NCBI GenBank assembly: GCA_016932575.1
Contig: JAFGCO010000052.1
Location: 1-51,189, forward strand
Length of the DNA stretch: 51,189 nucleotides
Direction of reading: 5' to 3'
From: a bacterium
Lineage (GTDB): Bacteria; Zhuqueibacterota; QNDG01; JAFGCO01
Below, piece by piece: positions 9,467-25,861 of this stretch. The position numbers were made by a program, and so were the translations under genes. The number at the start of each line of letters is the position of its first letter. The first letter of the stretch is position 1. The notes below the pieces were generated by a model, which saw only the letters and a list, made by a program, of their open reading frames with translations, was not told the DNA's origin and did not search any database.

Positions 9467-11830
9467 TCATTTGCGATCTGTATTATGAATGTTTAATCGA
9501 AACTTTGCCAGTAATTGCTGTTCGCCTACAGCCATATTTTCGAGAGATTGAGCCAGCTCAGACACTTTATCCAGTTCTTTGCTCATTTCTTTGGTGGATT
9601 CGTTTACAATTTCAACGGTTTTTACGTTTTTATCGCTGATACTGGCTACCTTTTCCATGGCTTCGCCCACCTGGTTGGAATACGCCTGCATCTGCATGAC
9701 CATTTCTGCGATTTGCTTTACACGACTTTGATCCACTTCTACGAGCTTTGTGATATCTTCTACTGTTTGTTTCGCACCTTCTGTGGACTGGGTGGTTTCA
9801 TGAAGACGGCGCAGGCTTTCGGACATCATTTTCTGAACCTGTTCAATGCCATTTCTTACTGATACCACCAATTGAATGGCATTTTGTGTGGCATCCCGGG
9901 TGCTTTTTGCCAATGTGCGGACCTCATTGGCAACTACACTGAATCCCTTTCCATATTTTCCGGCTTTGGTGGCTTCTATGGATGCGTTCAGTGCCAGCAC
10001 ATTGACCCTGGAAGCAATATCACTGATTAATTCAACAACATTGTCTATTTTGGTGGAGTGCTCTTCAAGATCTTCTACAATTTTTCCCGTTTCAGTAACA
10101 GAATGCTCCACAGTTTTCATGCTGTCCAGAGTATTCACCATGGCTTTTGAGCCATCGAATACTGCTTGAACCGTACGTTCAGCGGCTTTTGAGCTTTCTT
10201 CGGTTTTCCGATTGACCAGAGAAATATTTTGAAGCAATGCGCCTAAAACGCCTTTGGTTGCACTGATTTCTTGATTCTGAAGTACAGCCCCCTCGGACAT
10301 GCCGCCCATGGCAGCTTTTACACTCTCGGTAGCCTGGGTGGATTGTGTCGCTGAAAATGCCAGTTTCTCACTCAGGTTTTTCAATTTCTCAGCCTGGTCC
10401 TTTACCGTATAAATTAAATTTCCCAAACTGGCTGGTTCTGTATTCCAGGTAACCACAGGCACACCGGCCTGGACGGCTTTGTTAATATAAGGCACCAGAT
10501 CGCTATCCGAAGCCACAACGGCAATGCCGTCGCATTTTTCTTTCACCAGCTTTTCGATCCATGGCCCGTAAACAGCGGCGGAAATATCCCCTTTTTCTTT
10601 ATTTTCTTTGGGGACAATCCATTCCACTTTTGTATTTAACGGTTTTAGAACTGCCGCTGCAGAGACAACCCCTTTACGGGTCTCCTCCCAGAATGTTGCC
10701 TCTGACCGCCCCAGTACAACGATCCGTAAAGGCTTTTTATTTTTTGTCTGGATGACCTTGGCCAGGCGCGTGGTGATTTCGGATGTTTGAATGCTCCCTT
10801 CACCGGGTTTCCAGAATTTTTGATAATTATTTTGCGTGACGACATCCATATGCGTCAATAGACGCGGCGTCTGGGGTATCCAGTTGCTTGTAATATGATT
10901 ATAAAGATAGATGACCGGATTATAACCCTGCGCAATAGGATCCTGACTCAATGAAGCTGTAACGATTCCCTCCTGTAAAAACTCAACTGTGGTGGCCGAC
11001 AGATCATGCGATATGATTTTTAAATAGTCATATTTTTTGTTCTCTTTAATATATTCCACACATCCCTCACTTGAATTGGTATCTGTGAAATAGACCCCCG
11101 AAAGATTGGGATGCTTTTTTAATAATTCCGGCATATAATCATAAACCCGTTTTTTGTTCGTAAGAGATTCAGAAACATCCACAATATGTATATCCGGGTG
11201 TTTGTCAAGAAGATGGGCCTCAAGGCCCTTTCGTCTCAGGTCGTGGCCAATATGCTTGAAACTGCCCAGAACAATGGCAACCTCACCTTTCCCATTTAAT
11301 GTATCTGCCATGACCTCGGCACATCGGTTGCCCTCCAGAAAAGAGTCGGCACCGACAAAGCATAAACGCAAGCAGGGAATACCGGTGACTGAATTAAATT
11401 CCTTAACGCTGTTTTGAAGGTTGATCACGAGACTGTTGATCATTTGTATCATGGGAATGATTTGAGTTGTATTTTTTAATTTTAAGGGTTTTGATTTCAG
11501 TACGAGCTGCTCCGATAGATCTCCCTGTCCCAAGTCGGTTAAGGCTCTTGTCAGCTTTGGACAGTCTTCTGTATTCAGCGTTTTTCCGATTTCCAATACC
11601 CCTTTCATGGGATCGATATGCATTTGTCTTGCAATCCAGAATAGAGTCATTGCGCAAAAGAACGACAGAAATCCGATTATCCGGAAAATCAACGCCACAG
11701 GAAGCCTGTTGCTTAGGGCGTCCTGGAGTGCCATTCCAGATATCTGCAGGGCAAGGAGAATTATAAGAATCAGAAAAACCAGTTGTAACAATTTTTGTTT
11801 TCCAAACAATAGGTTTGGATCGTCTGACAT
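9467..11830 (-). CDS. Chemoreceptor with cytoplasmic, apparently circularly permuted sugar-binding module
   Basis: A 787-residue methyl-accepting chemotaxis protein. Two hydrophobic helices (about 14-36 and 43-68) form an N-terminal hairpin. Residues about 158-345 match the C-terminal lobe of type 1 periplasmic sugar-binding proteins (GKGEVAIVLGSF, SQDPIAQGYNP, VVTQNNYQKFW). Residues about 368-470 match the N-terminal lobe (IVVLGRSEATFWEETRKG, CDGIAVVASDSD, AGVPVVTWN), so the lobes are in reversed order. The MCP signalling coiled coil follows, with its hairpin tip near VNVLALNASIEATKAG. With no later TM segment the sensor should face the cytoplasm. The ATG at 11830 is chosen for its AGGAGA site 7 bases upstream; an upstream in-frame start would add 37 poorly justified residues. 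Confidence 0.9.
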   Translation of the reverse strand: MSDDPNLLFGKQKLLQLVFLILIILLALQISGMALQDALSNRLPVALIFRIIGFLSFFCAMTLFWIARQMHIDPMKGVLEIGKTLNTEDCPKLTRALTDLGQGDLSEQLVLKSKPLKLKNTTQIIPMIQMINSLVINLQNSVKEFNSVTGIPCLRLCFVGADSFLEGNRCAEVMADTLNGKGEVAIVLGSFKHIGHDLRRKGLEAHLLDKHPDIHIVDVSESLTNKKRVYDYMPELLKKHPNLSGVYFTDTNSSEGCVEYIKENKKYDYLKIISHDLSATTVEFLQEGIVTASLSQDPIAQGYNPVIYLYNHITSNWIPQTPRLLTHMDVVTQNNYQKFWKPGEGSIQTSEITTRLAKVIQTKNKKPLRIVVLGRSEATFWEETRKGVVSAAAVLKPLNTKVEWIVPKENKEKGDISAAVYGPWIEKLVKEKCDGIAVVASDSDLVPYINKAVQAGVPVVTWNTEPASLGNLIYTVKDQAEKLKNLSEKLAFSATQSTQATESVKAAMGGMSEGAVLQNQEISATKGVLGALLQNISLVNRKTEESSKAAERTVQAVFDGSKAMVNTLDSMKTVEHSVTETGKIVEDLEEHSTKIDNVVELISDIASRVNVLALNASIEATKAGKYGKGFSVVANEVRTLAKSTRDATQNAIQLVVSVRNGIEQVQKMMSESLRRLHETTQSTEGAKQTVEDITKLVEVDQSRVKQIAEMVMQMQAYSNQVGEAMEKVASISDKNVKTVEIVNESTKEMSKELDKVSELAQSLENMAVGEQQLLAKFRLNIHNTDRK

Positions 11831-12539
11831 CGTCAATCTCCTCATAATACTATGATGTATAATATAATAGGCCTTATTATTAATAATAACAATTTTTGTG
11901 CCAAACAATATACAATTTTTACGACAAGCGATCGTTGTCACAAGAGGTCGTTAAAAAAGAATGATCGTATATTCAATCTGCGGCAGAAAGCCTCTTATGA
12001 CGAATAATATCTTGATATTGCTGGAGATATAAAATCGAATATTTAGAATTATCCGGATTTTGCAATCCATTCAACAAAAGAAAAAATGATTTTAAAGATA
12101 TTCATGTAATAGATTATAGGATGCAGGGAATAAATTTCAGATTGAAATGGCGTTGATGAAAGAATAATGGCGTGCTGGACAGATCGATTCAGTATACAAA
12201 GAATCACTGATGGGATACACGGTCTGCGAATACTCTCAATAATGTCAAGGATTATGATATCTCTAAAATTTTATTGAATCCTTTTTGGAACCATTCCGTA
12301 TTGTATAGTGATCATGAAGCATGCTTAATTCAGCACTCCTTCTTGAAATTGGCTTGCTTTTTCGAAATGGCCCCGGGGCTGCCTCCCTCGGGGCCATAAA
12401 TGCAATATTTCATGAATCGTATATTTTTGATCGGCCCGCTGCGGACGCTCGGGGAAAGCAGATTTGTTATTGTATGTTGAAATTATAAAGAAAGTTGTAA
12501 AAAACAGGTTTTGATTTTTAACTTGGAAATGTCATTTTT
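11831..12539. other. Intergenic region between chemoreceptor and rho, with one hairpin
   Basis: About 700 bases upstream of the chemoreceptor gene and downstream of rho. No supported gene. A 9-base inverted repeat, ATGGCCCCG/CGGGGCCAT, lies at 12367-12397 with a 13-base GC-rich loop. It has no T-run on either side, so it resembles a dispersed palindrome more than a terminator. Confidence 0.5.
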
Positions 12540-13787: not shown

Positions 13788-14164
13788 GGGTTCCTCTTAG
13801 ATAACACTTTGTTGATATTATAAATTATTGTATATATTTATTTTAATGGAACATAAGATTATATCGGAGATCTATTTTCTATTGGATTTGATACAAGTGA
13901 TATGAATACAGATATTTTATTGGCTACTTATTTAATAATCCTCATTTAAACAATGGATGGGTGAATCGCAACCTGAGCTTAAATGAAAAGAACACGGATT
14001 TTCTGGCTGGGAATTCACAAAATAATGAGCGGGTTTTATTGATTATCACTCAATCAATACAAACTTCTATTTTGTGATCACTTTAAAATAAGGAATAAAT
14101 GGAATTTTGTCAAGCTTTTTATCTTGAGAAAACCTCATTTTTTTATTAACTTTATCTAACCAGC
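13788..14164. other. Divergent intergenic region between rho and the TPP riboswitch
   Basis: AT-rich DNA that must hold the rho promoter (minus strand) and the promoter of the thiamine operon (plus strand). A TATAAT lies on the minus strand at 13822-13817, but its -35 partner is poor. No gene is seen. Confidence 0.45.
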
Positions 14165-14243
14165 CGTTAGGGGTGTCCCGAGCGAATGGGACTGAGATGA
14201 CACCCTTGGAACCTGATCAGGATGATACCTGCGAAGGGAAACG
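14165..14243 (+). promoter_or_regulatory. TPP riboswitch (THI element)
   Basis: The RNA carries the conserved THI-box elements in order: AGGGGTG, then ACTGAGATGACACCC, then GAACCTGATCAGGATGATAC, then GCGAAGGGAA. P1 can close with CGTT (14165-14168) against AACG (14240-14243). The aptamer binds thiamine pyrophosphate and usually lowers expression when thiamine is plentiful. It sits about 80 bases upstream of the Thi4 start, so it should control that gene and its operon. No T-run terminator is obvious in the linker, so control at the ribosome-binding site (GAAAGGAAC before the ATG) is more likely than premature termination. Confidence 0.96.
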
Positions 14244-14326
14244 AAACAGTTTTTCCATCCAGTTTCTGATTTCTGCTTCCATTCCAGGTAAGAATCAAGG
14301 ACACATATAAATATGAAAGGAACATA

Positions 14327-15121
14327 ATGTTAGATGAAGTTGTCATTTCAAGAGCAATCCTTCAGCGGTTTTATGAAAAATTGTCTGAAAACCTGGAAGC
14401 GGATGTAGCGATTGTCGGCGGCGGTCCCGCCGGGCTTGTGGCCGGTTACTATTTGAGCAAATCGCGAAAAAAGGTTGTTATGTTTGAGCGCAAATTAAGT
14501 ATCGGCGGAGGCATGTGGGGTGGTGGAATGTTATTTAATGAAATTGTGGTTCAACAAGATGCCCTCCCTATTCTGGATGAGTTACAAATTCGATACAGAG
14601 AATTTCAGCCCAATTATTACACGGCTGATTCCGTTGAGGCCGTTTCGACATTGACATCCAAAGCGTCCAAAGCCGGATTGATCGTGTTCAATTGCATGAG
14701 TGCGGAAGATGTCTTGATGAGGAAGGATCGTGTGACCGGGCTGGTGCTGAATTGGTCTGCAGTAGAAATTGCCGGTTTGCATGTAGATCCACTGTCTATG
14801 CGTGCCCGTTATGTCATTGACGCCACAGGACATGCCACGGAAGTGGTTCATGTGGTCAGGAAAAAAGTACCGGGCAGGCTGCTGACTGAATCCGGGGAGA
14901 TAGAGGGAGAAAAGAGCATGTGGTCTGACCGGGCGGAGGCTTTGACATTGGAAAATACACGAGAAGTATTTTCTGGTCTTTATGTTGCAGGCATGGCGGC
15001 CAATGCAACGTTTGGGGGACCAAGAATGGGTCCGATTTTTGGGGGCATGTTGAGATCAGGCAAGAAAGCGGCTTCTCTGATATTAGAGAAATTGGATACG
15101 CAGGCCGGTGAAGGCAGTTGA
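14327..15121 (+). CDS. thi4: Thi4 family thiazole synthase, sulfide-dependent type
   Basis: A 264-residue protein, typical of prokaryotic Thi4, which makes the ADP-thiazole precursor of thiamine from NAD+, glycine and a sulfur source. It has the dinucleotide-binding motif [10 protein letters not shown] (about residues 28-37), [18 protein letters not shown] (54-70) and the C-terminal [21 protein letters not shown]. At the site of the sacrificial cysteine of yeast Thi4 this protein has histidine (DATGHA, H169). From work on archaeal homologues, that marks the catalytic form that uses free sulfide instead of destroying itself. This fits an anaerobic, sulfide-exposed life, which is an inference. 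The TPP riboswitch upstream supports the assignment. Confidence 0.95.
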
Positions 15122-20827: not shown

Positions 20828-23800
20828 ATGATGAAATCATATGGTCGTCTGTATGGATTGTATATATGTCTTTTTCTTGTCGTCTTCTCAACAGCGGATT
20901 ATGCACAATCTTCAGATTACTTATCCGGAACGGTATTCAGCGGAAACAAACCGGATGAGAATACAAAGATTTCGGGCGTCACTGTAAAATTATACGGATC
21001 CATGAACAGCGGCACGCTGGGCAGCCAGATCGGTAGCACCACCACCGATGGAAACGGCTGGTATTCACTCCTGGCCGTATCCGGATATGAATATTATAAT
21101 ATTGTCGAAACCGATCTTTCAGGATATCAATCCGTAGGTGCGAGTTCGGTCAGCGGCACGGTCATCAACAGCAACCGTATCCAGTACAGCATCGCAAGCC
21201 AGCCCCTTTCGGCGCAGACAAAAACCGGGAACAAATTCTGGGACAAACCGACCGCGCCCGCGAACCATTCACCCGATGCAGTCGATGATAACGCATCCAC
21301 AAAAAAAAATACGGCTGTAACGATTTCTGTGCTTGCCAATGACAGCGATCCGGACGGCGATACGATCACCCTGCAGAGCAAGACCTCGGCCTCGCACGGC
21401 ACGGTGATAAAAAGCGGCAATCAGATCATCTACACGCCGAATACCGGATACACGGGCACAGACCAGTTCAGTTACACCATCAGCGACGGACGCGGGGGGA
21501 CAGATACGGCCACCGTCACCGTCACAGTCACTGAAGGAAGCGTACAAACAGGTTCCATAGGCGATTGGATATGGCTTGATCTCGATCAGGACGGATTGCA
21601 GGATGCCGGAGAACCTGGCATCGCCAATGTGACGGTTTCGCTCTATGATGACAGTGACAACATGCTGGCAAGCACCAGTACGGACGGAAGCGGCTATTAT
21701 TTATTTTCCAATTTAAATCCCGATGATTATTATTTGATCGTCACACCTTCGTCCGGATATCAGTTTGTTCCCCAGGATCAGGGTATGGATGACACAATAG
21801 ACAGCGATGCGGATGCCGCAACCGGAAGGATCGATGTGCTCAGCCTGACGGGCGGAGAAAACCGGGATTATATGGACGCGGGTATGACTGGTCCGGAAGA
21901 CGGTAATTATGATTTCGGGGATGCGCCGAATAACGGATCCACTGATTTATATCCCACCACACTGGCTCAGGATGGAGCGCGTCATCGGATGGATCCGGAT
22001 GTTTATCTTGGAATGCAAATCGATACTGAGCCCGATGGAATTCCCATGTCCAATGCGCTTGGCGACGATACAGATGGTTTTAATGATGAAGACGGCGTGG
22101 TCTTTACGTCACCCCTGATACCCGGTACTGTGGCCGCTGTGAAAGTTACGGCGTCCACATACGGGCTTTTATACGGGTGGATCGATTTTAAACAGGATGG
22201 TCAGTTTGACGTGGCTACGGATCACATCTTCACGGGTCAGGCGCTTTCTCCCGGCTCCAATGTTCTGGGTATTGCTGTTCCGGCTGATGCAATCCTGGGC
22301 TGGACCTATGCGAGGTTCCGTTTTTCAAAAAACTCAATTCTTGATCCGGAGGGTGAAGCACCCGATGGTGAAGTGGAAGATTATGCTATTGAAATTCAAG
22401 AATCCGAAGAAGGCTCTGTTACGATTATCAAAGAAGCCATACCAGCGGATGATACACAATTTATGTTGTGCACACATCATTCAAGCGGCTTCTTTAATAT
22501 TCTATGCAGTTCCTTGTCGGATCCCTCCAATAATCAACTGTTTTTCTTCAATCCCGGTAATCTGCTCAGTGCTCAGGAAGGCACAGCGACAGGATGGGTA
22601 CTGTCAGATATTCAGGTGACCGGTGACCTGGACAATGGATCCGTGGTGAATCTTTCCAACCAAGAGGTGACTATTGATTTTGATCCGGGTGAGAATATTG
22701 TGATTACTTTTAAAAATGAGAAATCCGATGAAGAAGGCTTTGATTTCGGAGACGCGCCCGATCCCAGCTATCCAACACTGCTTGCCAGTAACGGTGCACG
22801 GCATATTATCGATCCTAATTTATATCTGGGTTCCGACATCGACAGCGAACCGGATGGATTGCCCGCAAGCGATGCGAAAGGTGATGATCAGCATGGTTCG
22901 AATGATGAGGATGGTGTGATAATGCCTTCGATCGTGACGCCAGGCCAAACGGTTTCACTTAAGGTCATAGCCTCTGCATCCGGGTACCTGGCAGGCTGGA
23001 TGGATTTTAACATAAACGGTAACTGGCAGGATCAGAATGAACGTATTATTACAATTAGTTCAGTAACGGCAGGGGTGAATCATCTGAGTTTTCAGGTGCC
23101 CGCGAATGCAGCTATAGGACAAACCTATGCGCGATTCAGATTCACCTCCTCTCATCACATCAGTGTTGACGGCGAATTGCCGGACGGTGAAGTGGAAGAT
23201 TATGCAGTTGGCATTCAGGAATCGGGTACCGGATCTATCACCATTATCAAGGATGCCACACCCAAGGATGACACACCCTTCTGGATCACCGTGACATATG
23301 GCATCAATGGAGGGGTGGCACCCTATAGGGATCCGTCTGCCAATACTTCCACGATCACCAACGGTCCTGCCGGAATTTATGGAATCGGTGAATTTGTGAC
23401 TGCAGGCTGGACGCTCAAAGATATTATTGTCGCCGGGGATACGGATAATGGATCGGTAATTAATATCGGGGGACATTCTGTGAATGTGGATCTGGATGAC
23501 GGTGAAAGTATTACGGTGACGTTCAAAAATGAAAAATCCGATGACGCTGCATATGATTTCGGGGATGCGCCCTCGGGCTATCCAAGCGCCAGTCATCTCC
23601 TGGACGGGCCGTATCTGGGATGGCTGACGGGTGCGCCCGATGCGGAAGGCGGCATGCAGCATACTTCAGATGCGTCCGGCGATGACCAGGACGGATATGA
23701 TGATGAGCAGGGATTCAACGTTTTTACAAGCACAACGCATGTTCCCGGCGGGTATTGGGGTGTGGATCTGGATATTACGCTGAATCAATGCAAGGGTTTT

Positions 23801-25861
23801 ACCGTTGCTTTATGGATCGACTGGAACCGGGATTTCGACTGGAACGACACCCAGGAAGAAATTTTCAGTTACAGCACCTCCACAGCGTGGATGGGTCAGA
23901 CTTTTCAGATTTTATCGATTACGGCCAATATTCCCTCGACAGTTTCTCCTGGCGATCTGTTTGCACGCGTGCGCCTTGCGGACGGCGAGAATGTCGCGCT
24001 GACGCCTGACGGTGCATTCGGAAAAGGTGAAATTCAGGATCATGTCATCCATATCGTGGAGGGACCTGTACCGGATCCGTCCGGCGGCCGTATATACGGA
24101 ATGAAGTGGGATGATAAGAACGGCAATAAAATCTGGGATATGACTGAATCTGTTCTTTCGGGATGGACCATCTGGCTCGATCTCAATCAGAATGGCGTGG
24201 AAGATTCAGGAGACGCCTATGATATTACGAACGGTTCCGGTCAATTCGAGTTTTCCGGTCTGAATGCCGGTCAATATATTGTGGGAGAGAAATTGAAACC
24301 CGGCTGGATTCAGACCTGGCCCGGCAGTCCGGCCACGCATACCATGACTGTCGATCCCCAAAAGCCCGGTCTCGGGATTATGTTCGGCAATCAGCAGACC
24401 GGTCCCGATTCCGGAAGTAGTGCAGTCAAGTGGGATCAGTCCCTTCTGTTCGATATCATGAGTGACGATACCACCTGTTACCGGTCCAGGCGCGAGCCAT
24501 CGGTTCTGTCCGAGTCGATCATGGCGGACAACTGGTTCTGCAACAATCCGAAGCCGGTCACGTGTATTCGCTGGTGGGGCGCTTATGAAGACTGGGAAAG
24601 CCTCGTGCCGCCAGAAAATGCACCGGATTATTTTCATATCGGCATATGGACACATACAACCGAGGATGAATCGTATGAATTCAGCCATCCCGGCGAGCTG
24701 ATACTGGAATGGTTCCTTGAACGGAGTCAGGTCCAGGAAATGGGTATAAAATCTTATCACGATTCTGAGACTATGGAAAAACCCGGATCCGTTTTTCAAT
24801 ATCAGTTCAATATTGAACCAGCGGCCTGGTTTTATCAGGAGGGAGAGTCAAACATCTACTGGATTCACATTGCAGCCGCTTATGAAGAAATCCCGTCTGC
24901 CCATTCATGGGGCTGGCTGACCCGGGAGCACTATTATCATGAAGATGCGATGCGGATCAATCTGCCCAGCGATCCTCATCCGGGCGCAGTGTTTGAAGAG
25001 GGCATGCCGATCGGTTCTTATTGGGATATGGCATATATTCTGTTTACAAACGAAATGGAATCTGATTTTGATTTCGGAGATGCGCCGGATATCGGTTTCG
25101 GCACCACCACAGCGAAAAACGGAGCACTGCACCTGATCCGTCCTGATATTTATCTCGGCGAACAGATTGATGCCGATTATGACGGCCAGCCGCATTCCCG
25201 GGCAACAGGGGATGATGAGGACAACCTGGATGACGAAGACGGTGTCGAAATCATTTATCCTGCGGTTGTGGGCGGGAAACCACAGATTCAGGTTCAGGTT
25301 TCCGCGCATGGTTTTTTAAACGCCTGGATGGACGTCAATCAGAATGGGCAATGGATTGAATCAGATGATCATATTATTCAGAATGCCGAGCTGGAAGCCG
25401 GTACCCATATATTTGAGATTCCGGTTATTGACAATATTCAGGCGGGTGAATATATGAGCCGGTTCCGTTTCGGAAGCGAACCCTATCTGTGGTTCAGGGG
25501 ATTTGCAATCGATGGAGAAGTGGAAGATCATCTGCTACATCTTGACTTTACCGGAGTGAATCAGACGGAATCCGTCATCCCGACAGAGTACCGGTTATAT
25601 CAGAATCATCCGAATCCATTTAATCCATATACCGCCATCACTTATGATATTTCGGAAAAAACGGCTGTAGAAATCGCGGTATATAATCTGGCCGGTCAGC
25701 GAATCGCATGCTTGATCAATCAGGAACAGACACCTGGCATGTACCGGGTGATCTGGCAGGGATTGGACATGCATGGACGGGCTGTATCATCGGGTGTGTA
25801 TCTCTGCCGCATGAAAGCACGATCGTTCCAGAAGACGACAAAGCTGATTTTTATGAGATGA
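20828..25861 (+). CDS. Giant secreted surface protein with GEVED repeats and type IX-like tail
   Basis: A 1677-residue exported protein (signal peptide about 1-26). In order: a CnaB-like beta domain (about 31-115); a cadherin-like Big_9 domain (149-235, VLANDSDPDGD); an SdrD-B-like domain (241-345); four modules running from DFGDAP to a GEVEDY-type end (about 361-520, 638-793, 910-1070 and 1416-1570); two linking domains beginning GSVTIIK and GSITIIK; a second SdrD-B-like domain (1086-1195); an unassigned WWGAYEDW-containing region (1197-1400); and a sorting module with NHPNPFNP (1590-1677). No catalytic motif is seen, so adhesion or matrix building is the best inference. Acidic calcium-type motifs are frequent. 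GGGGAGAG precedes the start, and its stop overlaps recQ. Confidence 0.93.
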   Translation: MMKSYGRLYGLYICLFLVVFSTADYAQSSDYLSGTVFSGNKPDENTKISGVTVKLYGSMNSGTLGSQIGSTTTDGNGWYSLLAVSGYEYYNIVETDLSGYQSVGASSVSGTVINSNRIQYSIASQPLSAQTKTGNKFWDKPTAPANHSPDAVDDNASTKKNTAVTISVLANDSDPDGDTITLQSKTSASHGTVIKSGNQIIYTPNTGYTGTDQFSYTISDGRGGTDTATVTVTVTEGSVQTGSIGDWIWLDLDQDGLQDAGEPGIANVTVSLYDDSDNMLASTSTDGSGYYLFSNLNPDDYYLIVTPSSGYQFVPQDQGMDDTIDSDADAATGRIDVLSLTGGENRDYMDAGMTGPEDGNYDFGDAPNNGSTDLYPTTLAQDGARHRMDPDVYLGMQIDTEPDGIPMSNALGDDTDGFNDEDGVVFTSPLIPGTVAAVKVTASTYGLLYGWIDFKQDGQFDVATDHIFTGQALSPGSNVLGIAVPADAILGWTYARFRFSKNSILDPEGEAPDGEVEDYAIEIQESEEGSVTIIKEAIPADDTQFMLCTHHSSGFFNILCSSLSDPSNNQLFFFNPGNLLSAQEGTATGWVLSDIQVTGDLDNGSVVNLSNQEVTIDFDPGENIVITFKNEKSDEEGFDFGDAPDPSYPTLLASNGARHIIDPNLYLGSDIDSEPDGLPASDAKGDDQHGSNDEDGVIMPSIVTPGQTVSLKVIASASGYLAGWMDFNINGNWQDQNERIITISSVTAGVNHLSFQVPANAAIGQTYARFRFTSSHHISVDGELPDGEVEDYAVGIQESGTGSITIIKDATPKDDTPFWITVTYGINGGVAPYRDPSANTSTITNGPAGIYGIGEFVTAGWTLKDIIVAGDTDNGSVINIGGHSVNVDLDDGESITVTFKNEKSDDAAYDFGDAPSGYPSASHLLDGPYLGWLTGAPDAEGGMQHTSDASGDDQDGYDDEQGFNVFTSTTHVPGGYWGVDLDITLNQCKGFTVALWIDWNRDFDWNDTQEEIFSYSTSTAWMGQTFQILSITANIPSTVSPGDLFARVRLADGENVALTPDGAFGKGEIQDHVIHIVEGPVPDPSGGRIYGMKWDDKNGNKIWDMTESVLSGWTIWLDLNQNGVEDSGDAYDITNGSGQFEFSGLNAGQYIVGEKLKPGWIQTWPGSPATHTMTVDPQKPGLGIMFGNQQTGPDSGSSAVKWDQSLLFDIMSDDTTCYRSRREPSVLSESIMADNWFCNNPKPVTCIRWWGAYEDWESLVPPENAPDYFHIGIWTHTTEDESYEFSHPGELILEWFLERSQVQEMGIKSYHDSETMEKPGSVFQYQFNIEPAAWFYQEGESNIYWIHIAAAYEEIPSAHSWGWLTREHYYHEDAMRINLPSDPHPGAVFEEGMPIGSYWDMAYILFTNEMESDFDFGDAPDIGFGTTTAKNGALHLIRPDIYLGEQIDADYDGQPHSRATGDDEDNLDDEDGVEIIYPAVVGGKPQIQVQVSAHGFLNAWMDVNQNGQWIESDDHIIQNAELEAGTHIFEIPVIDNIQAGEYMSRFRFGSEPYLWFRGFAIDGEVEDHLLHLDFTGVNQTESVIPTEYRLYQNHPNPFNPYTAITYDISEKTAVEIAVYNLAGQRIACLINQEQTPGMYRVIWQGLDMHGRAVSSGVYLCRMKARSFQKTTKLIFMR

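Follow-up and report, generated by a model that had tools for sequence, protein, structure and literature searches.

The gene at positions 9467 to 11830 (minus strand) of the window, by which we mean the whole 51,189-nucleotide stretch analyzed, encodes a chemoreceptor whose sensor consists of type I sugar-binding lobes in reversed order. By its sequence, this sensor is cytoplasmic and lies on the MCP side of both transmembrane (TM) segments. The protein is probably a membrane-anchored chemoreceptor with a cytoplasmic, circularly permuted type I sugar-binding protein (SBP) as its sensor, in which closure on a ligand would alter CheA activity. MCP receptors, type I SBPs and one permuted SBP (TpMglB-2) are known already; what appears to be new is a permuted SBP used as the in-line cytoplasmic sensor of a chemoreceptor. 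We found no report of such a sensor in searches of open-access papers.

Domain layout and lobe order of the chemoreceptor

Counted from its ATG, the chemoreceptor has 787 residues, and the frame stays open further upstream as far as a GTG at 11941. Two TM segments stand near the N-terminus. TM1 (residues ≈ 14–35; 11726–11791) reached hydropathy values of 2.8–3.0 and falls within a helix of residues 5–38 in the full-length model, and TM2 (residues ≈ 45–66; 11633–11698), likewise seen by hydropathy, falls within a helix of residues 43–101. A HAMP-like helix–connector–helix follows (residues ≈ 74–148; 11387–11611), assigned from models that place linker helices up to residue 101 and at 125–148 and from a match common to the whole family; Pfam HAMP gave no match in this linker at E values up to 10. 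The sensor opens with a copy of the hinge-1 motif at its new N-terminal end (residues 145–154, FNSVTGIPCL; 11369–11398). The C-lobe (residues 155–341; 10808–11368) and the N-lobe (residues 365–464; 10439–10738), both of sugar-binding fold, are connected by the new joint (residues 342–364; 10739–10807), where the native SBP C-terminus is fused to the native SBP N-terminus. The signaling helix and MCP hairpin complete the protein (residues 469–774; 9509–10426; all features on the minus strand). Pfam MCPsignal matched residues 573–731 with 110.6 bits (cut-off 34.6), and the CheA/CheW-binding hairpin tip has columns invariant across 25 family members. The neighboring genes encode a GH2 glycosidase and rho, with no transporter partner there; hence the chemoreceptor gene belongs to no obvious operon.

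The Peripla_BP_4 profile scored 126.2 bits (cut-off 35.1) in two stretches. The best of these aligned residues 153–313 to profile positions 93–254, so that the C-terminal part of the profile comes first. A PDB search matched the C-lobe (155–323) to TmGBP (2h3h) and the N-lobe (372–462) to the beginning of 4wut, and a family-profile alignment placed residues 95–255 of 2h3h, the Thermotoga glucose-binding protein, at the sensor start and residues 2–92 at the sensor end. Finally, separate HMMs for the two lobes gave C-then-N in all 38 family receptors and N-then-C in every secreted relative. Each chain contains one C-lobe and one N-lobe, both complete, and the spacing between them is constant in the 38 proteins. 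Since the C-then-N order recurs in 38 proteins, three paralogues of the same genome included, it is not due to chance. The initial annotation had placed the C-lobe (158–345) ahead of the N-lobe (368–470), after the only two TM segments and before the MCP domain. All of this is borne out by the searches, by hydropathy and by the MCPsignal match, and the lobe bounds that we found (≈ 150–341 and ≈ 363–465) differ from the earlier ones by a few residues. The normal lobe order, which the same annotation had set against its own reading, was searched for by HMM and profile and was not seen.

A third TM segment between residues 345 and 500 had been named there as contrary evidence too. Past residue 100, hydropathy peaked at 1.26 (19-residue window), and no third TM segment was found. 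The extracytoplasmic loop between TM1 and TM2 is ≈ 14 residues long. A TM hairpin of this kind was present in 34 of 36 members examined, with loops of 4–29 residues, and three translated spirochaete members have a single N-terminal TM segment. In the 34 hairpin members, the mean number of Lys and Arg residues was 2.8 on the N-terminal side, 0.8 in the loop and 2.7 on the C-terminal side, a distribution that fits the positive-inside rule with both the N-terminus and the sensor inside. MCP hairpins operate in the cytoplasm; with no TM segment after TM2, the sensor should share that compartment.

Predicted fold and putative ligand-binding cleft

AlphaFold2 modeled residues 61–497 as a single bilobed domain (pLDDT 88, pTM 0.81), a predicted fold that draws on an alignment of only 33 related sequences. 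In a structure search of the PDB, the permuted TpMglB-2 (6bgc_B) matched this model over 280 residues (3.5 Å, Z 22.8) with both lobes colinear, from model residues 88–394 to chain residues 29–377. By comparison, 49 other entries among the matches listed covered 177–212 residues, about one half of the model, and nearly all stopped near model residue 290; ordinary sugar-binding proteins mostly matched model residues ≈ 87–290. These comparisons with the PDB were made with Foldseek and VIA-align, and Foldseek agreed with the two-lobe match to TpMglB-2. Of the two possibilities raised in the initial annotation, a circularly permuted domain or two decayed copies, the one two-lobed fold from AlphaFold2 and the colinear TpMglB-2 match favor the former.

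Entry 5er3 of the PDB (Rhodopirellula baltica) was likewise colinear over much of both lobes. This SBP aligned in permuted order as well (profile 146–390 to chain 32–266), with a cut point apparently unlike that of TpMglB-2. We know of no remark on the permuted order of 5er3.

The circular permutation of TpMglB-2 (Tp0684 of Treponema pallidum; PDB 5jx2, 6bgc) was shown by crystallography (PMC4990184). It shares with the chemoreceptor sensor the type I (cluster B) sugar-binding fold with the first N-lobe strands placed last, and the permutation point is the same, namely the first hinge, after the third N-lobe strand (colinear alignment; PMC4990184). In contrast to the chemoreceptor, TpMglB-2 is a secreted lipoprotein without a signaling domain, and it has an extra strand and a Ca site (PMC4990184). 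The sensor is 13–15% identical to TpMglB-2 and 22–25% identical to many ordinary SBPs. Because the identity to TpMglB-2 is the lower of the two, the permutation in the chemoreceptor probably arose separately. These values count against descent from TpMglB-2 but are no proof.

Cleft positions were defined as the equivalents of the ligand contacts of E. coli RBP, mapped by our own motif alignment to the RBP sequence. In the C-lobe they include D162, R199, H275, D276 and Q296, and in the N-lobe F380, W381 and N463. Apart from W381, all of these were invariant in 33 sequences that are 30–46% identical to the query. This makes 7 of 14 cleft positions invariant; over all positions, the figure is 18 of 315 (hypergeometric P = 1.5 × 10−6; 33 sequences). 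The equivalent of RBP F214 is an invariant His in the family (H275, before D276), the equivalents of RBP N190 and N64 vary among members, and D276 is replaced by Glu in two of three spirochaete members. The His in place of the usual Phe and the Glu of the spirochaete members indicate that specificity probably differs, and the ligand may be something other than a plain sugar. In the CUT2-type ABC operons of the canonical relatives, the best NCBIfam names were mixed (arabinose, xylose, ribose), all below equivalog cut-offs, and so point to no particular sugar.

Such invariance on the two lobes is consistent with a functional cleft between them. It also speaks against a clamp that no longer binds a small ligand and is a decayed, structural or protein-docking module, with sensing left to the membrane or the HAMP-like part. 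Many receptors carry inert linker domains, and the variation at the N190 and N64 equivalents would suit such a module; we nevertheless regard it as unlikely in view of the cleft residues kept at this level of divergence and of an extracytoplasmic part that is 4–29 residues long and is missing in spirochaete members. Pairing of lobes between protomers, the C-lobe of one with the N-lobe of the other in two shared clefts, has in its favor that chemoreceptors are dimers and that every protomer contributes a single C-lobe and a single N-lobe. This is an improbable arrangement, since one chain already forms a closed clamp in the high-confidence monomer model, the joint of ≈ 22 residues is long enough for pairing within a chain and the comparable TpMglB-2 forms its clamp inside one chain (PMC4990184). 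The decayed copies of the initial annotation would be two incomplete domains left from tandem sugar-binding proteins. Such tandems occur in Chloroflexota, making remnants of this kind conceivable, but they are very unlikely here: each lobe is complete, is present once and keeps its cleft residues, the spacing is constant in 38 proteins, and there is one bilobed model with a full two-lobe match to TpMglB-2. An artificial fusion of two gene fragments, through misassembly or a frameshift in this 72-contig draft genome, can practically be dismissed, because the order recurs in three paralogues, in isolates (Leptolinea tardivitalis among them) and on a complete plasmid from Leptolinea.

Origin and distribution of the permuted sensor

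The permuted domain was likely born by in-frame tandem duplication of an SBP gene, as suggested by three sequence features: native termini at the joint, a hinge motif at both ends of the sensor and the existence of tandem SBPs. In such a scheme, the SBP gene would have been duplicated in frame (N–C–N–C) and the central C–N piece kept. Comparison with the termini of secreted SBPs (L052, L053, L056, L057 and L060) showed that an SBP C-terminus (N..FW.P) runs into an SBP N-terminus (P.D..P..PLRIAVL) at the joint. The hinge motif FNxET..xNxRLFFVGAD occurs twice, as FNxxTxxPxxRLxYVGAD at the sensor start and as TFNSEP at the sensor end. The upstream copy, which lies outside the C-lobe proper, ranked among the best 1% of windows by its register-fixed score in 28 of the 36 members; these members are related, and the scoring matrix was small, being built from three sequences. 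Each of the relatives L045 and L046, which come from MAGs and belong to the near canonical clade, holds two nearly identical SBP copies in frame (99 and 98% identity over 289 residues).

Another tandem is found in the complete genome of Leptolinea sp. HRD-7 (L068:1042–3108, plus strand), where a 688-residue lipoprotein contains two apparently identical in-frame SBPs. It derives from a different SBP than the L045 and L046 copies.

Among ordinary SBPs, the nearest relatives are secreted proteins from Anaerolineae and spirochaetes, and their genes adjoin CUT2-type ABC transporter genes. SBPs of this near clade are 39–47% identical to the chemoreceptor in the N-lobe and 32–38% in the C-lobe. In a tree of the rearranged lobes, the receptors and the near SBPs group together, apart from other SBPs. 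This tree replaced an earlier one with LacI outgroups, which had long-branch trouble. The permuted group was not recovered as one clade (10% of bootstraps), but a single origin of the order was not rejected (AU p 0.48). Two near canonical SBP operons, from a UASB270 bacterium (L070:2117–8501) and from a spirochaete (L071:197–6500), have in common an NtrC-type sigma-54 regulator and, next to the permease, SBP and main ATPase, one additional single ABC ATPase.

The C-then-N order was found in at least 37 further proteins besides the chemoreceptor, from at least five phyla (KSB1-type bacteria, Chloroflexota, Acidobacteriota, Fibrobacterota and Spirochaetota). In the genome of the window there are four paralogues, of which two are neighbors, and 10 of 82 genomes of its own phylum have the family. 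Among sampled genomes, the family was present in 4 of 301 Chloroflexota and in 4 of 247 Spirochaetota, the latter count including one spirochaete (L090) by search match alone. Members were also found in MAGs labeled Acidobacteria and Chitinivibrionales and in isolates such as Leptolinea tardivitalis. The initial annotation had mentioned similar receptors in Spirochaetes and Clostridia. For Spirochaetes this agrees with these counts; for Clostridia it is not supported, as no permuted match at E ≤ 1 × 10−70, a threshold that weaker relatives could escape, came from 348 genomes in the phylum to which L055, a MAG labeled Bacillota, belongs. One member, annotated as a hypothetical protein, is encoded on a 212-kb Leptolinea plasmid (AP024711.1; L048:4001–5218).

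Proposed signaling mechanism

In an ordinary SBP, the residues that form the sensor ends are ≈ 10 residues apart and flank the first hinge, and these ends should therefore be neighbors in space. As the permutation opens the chain at the first inter-lobe hinge, both ends of the clamp would be adjacent there. The HAMP-like helix would thus enter at the hinge and the signaling helix leave from it. A monosaccharide-like cytoplasmic ligand would close the two lobes, and closure would rotate them about the first hinge. The HAMP-like and signaling helices would then shift or twist relative to each other in the receptor dimer and so change CheA activity.

An intracellular sugar would be relayed in this way through a CheA pathway, probably to type IV pili and not to flagella. 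The genome of the window has only one Che cluster (L086:2946–11239, contig C62), in the order CheW, CheR-TPR, CheW, MCP with HAMP, Hpt, CheA-CheW-REC and CheB. There are several T2SSE-type ATPases in the genome, and one of PilT size is encoded ≈ 4 kb upstream of the Che cluster. FliG, the one family searched, had no match in this genome, which is ≈ 94% complete. With the PilT-size ATPase near the Che cluster and no FliG match, the chemoreceptor probably drives surface movement through type IV pili rather than swimming. Glycosidases adjoin two of the paralogues (GH2 here, GH31 and alpha-amylase at L002), and this gene context hints weakly at a sugar signal. Taken as a whole, we lean towards a clamp that arose by tandem duplication, sits in the cytoplasmic stalk and, on closing around an imported sugar, would act on the signaling helices via the hinge, so that in at least five phyla the amount of sugar inside the cell would be tied to movement over surfaces.

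Ordinary secreted Peripla_BP_4 SBPs (L052–L058, L060 and L061; GanP, AraP and TmGBP) are homologous to the chemoreceptor in each lobe but have the normal N-to-C order and a signal peptide, and their genes stand beside those for an ABC permease and ATPase. SBPs usually take part in signaling outside the cell, where they dock with a distinct receptor protein. Canonical chemoreceptors with a periplasmic ligand-binding domain (dCache type, for example L085 of the same genome) have the MCP hairpin and its conserved tip in common with the present receptor, whose sensor instead lies after both TM segments, between the HAMP-like linker and the signaling helix. LacI-type regulators use the type I fold inside the cell for imported sugar; unlike the chemoreceptor, they have the normal lobe order, a helix–turn–helix output and no membrane anchor (L010 and L065–L067 are LacI-type relatives). 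A covalent, cytoplasmic clamp with its ends at the hinge is a design otherwise familiar from engineered biosensors. As outlined for permuted binding-protein and enzyme constructs, permutation couples binding to the new chain ends (PMC6335823, PMC8831504); those sensors are man-made, whereas the chemoreceptor sensor is natural. The natural series from single SBP through tandem SBP to permuted sensor would show how circular permutation arises, and the receptor family is suited to direct tests of intracellular metabolite sensing by chemotaxis-type pathways.

The genome of the window also encodes two chemoreceptors of 1158 and 1139 residues (L083:2611–6084 and L084:1602–5018, both minus strand), each of which joins an MCP signaling domain to a sensor of Reg_prop beta-propeller and Y_Y_Y type, like that of hybrid two-component systems in Bacteroides. 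The window itself contains a CRISPR array (57–1141) with 17 CRISPR-DR2 repeats ≈ 66 bases apart, a TPP riboswitch (14159–14256; 73 bits) a short way upstream of the Thi4-family gene at 14327, and a gene (20828–25861) for a 1677-residue surface-type protein with GEVED repeats, SdrD_B and cadherin-like domains.
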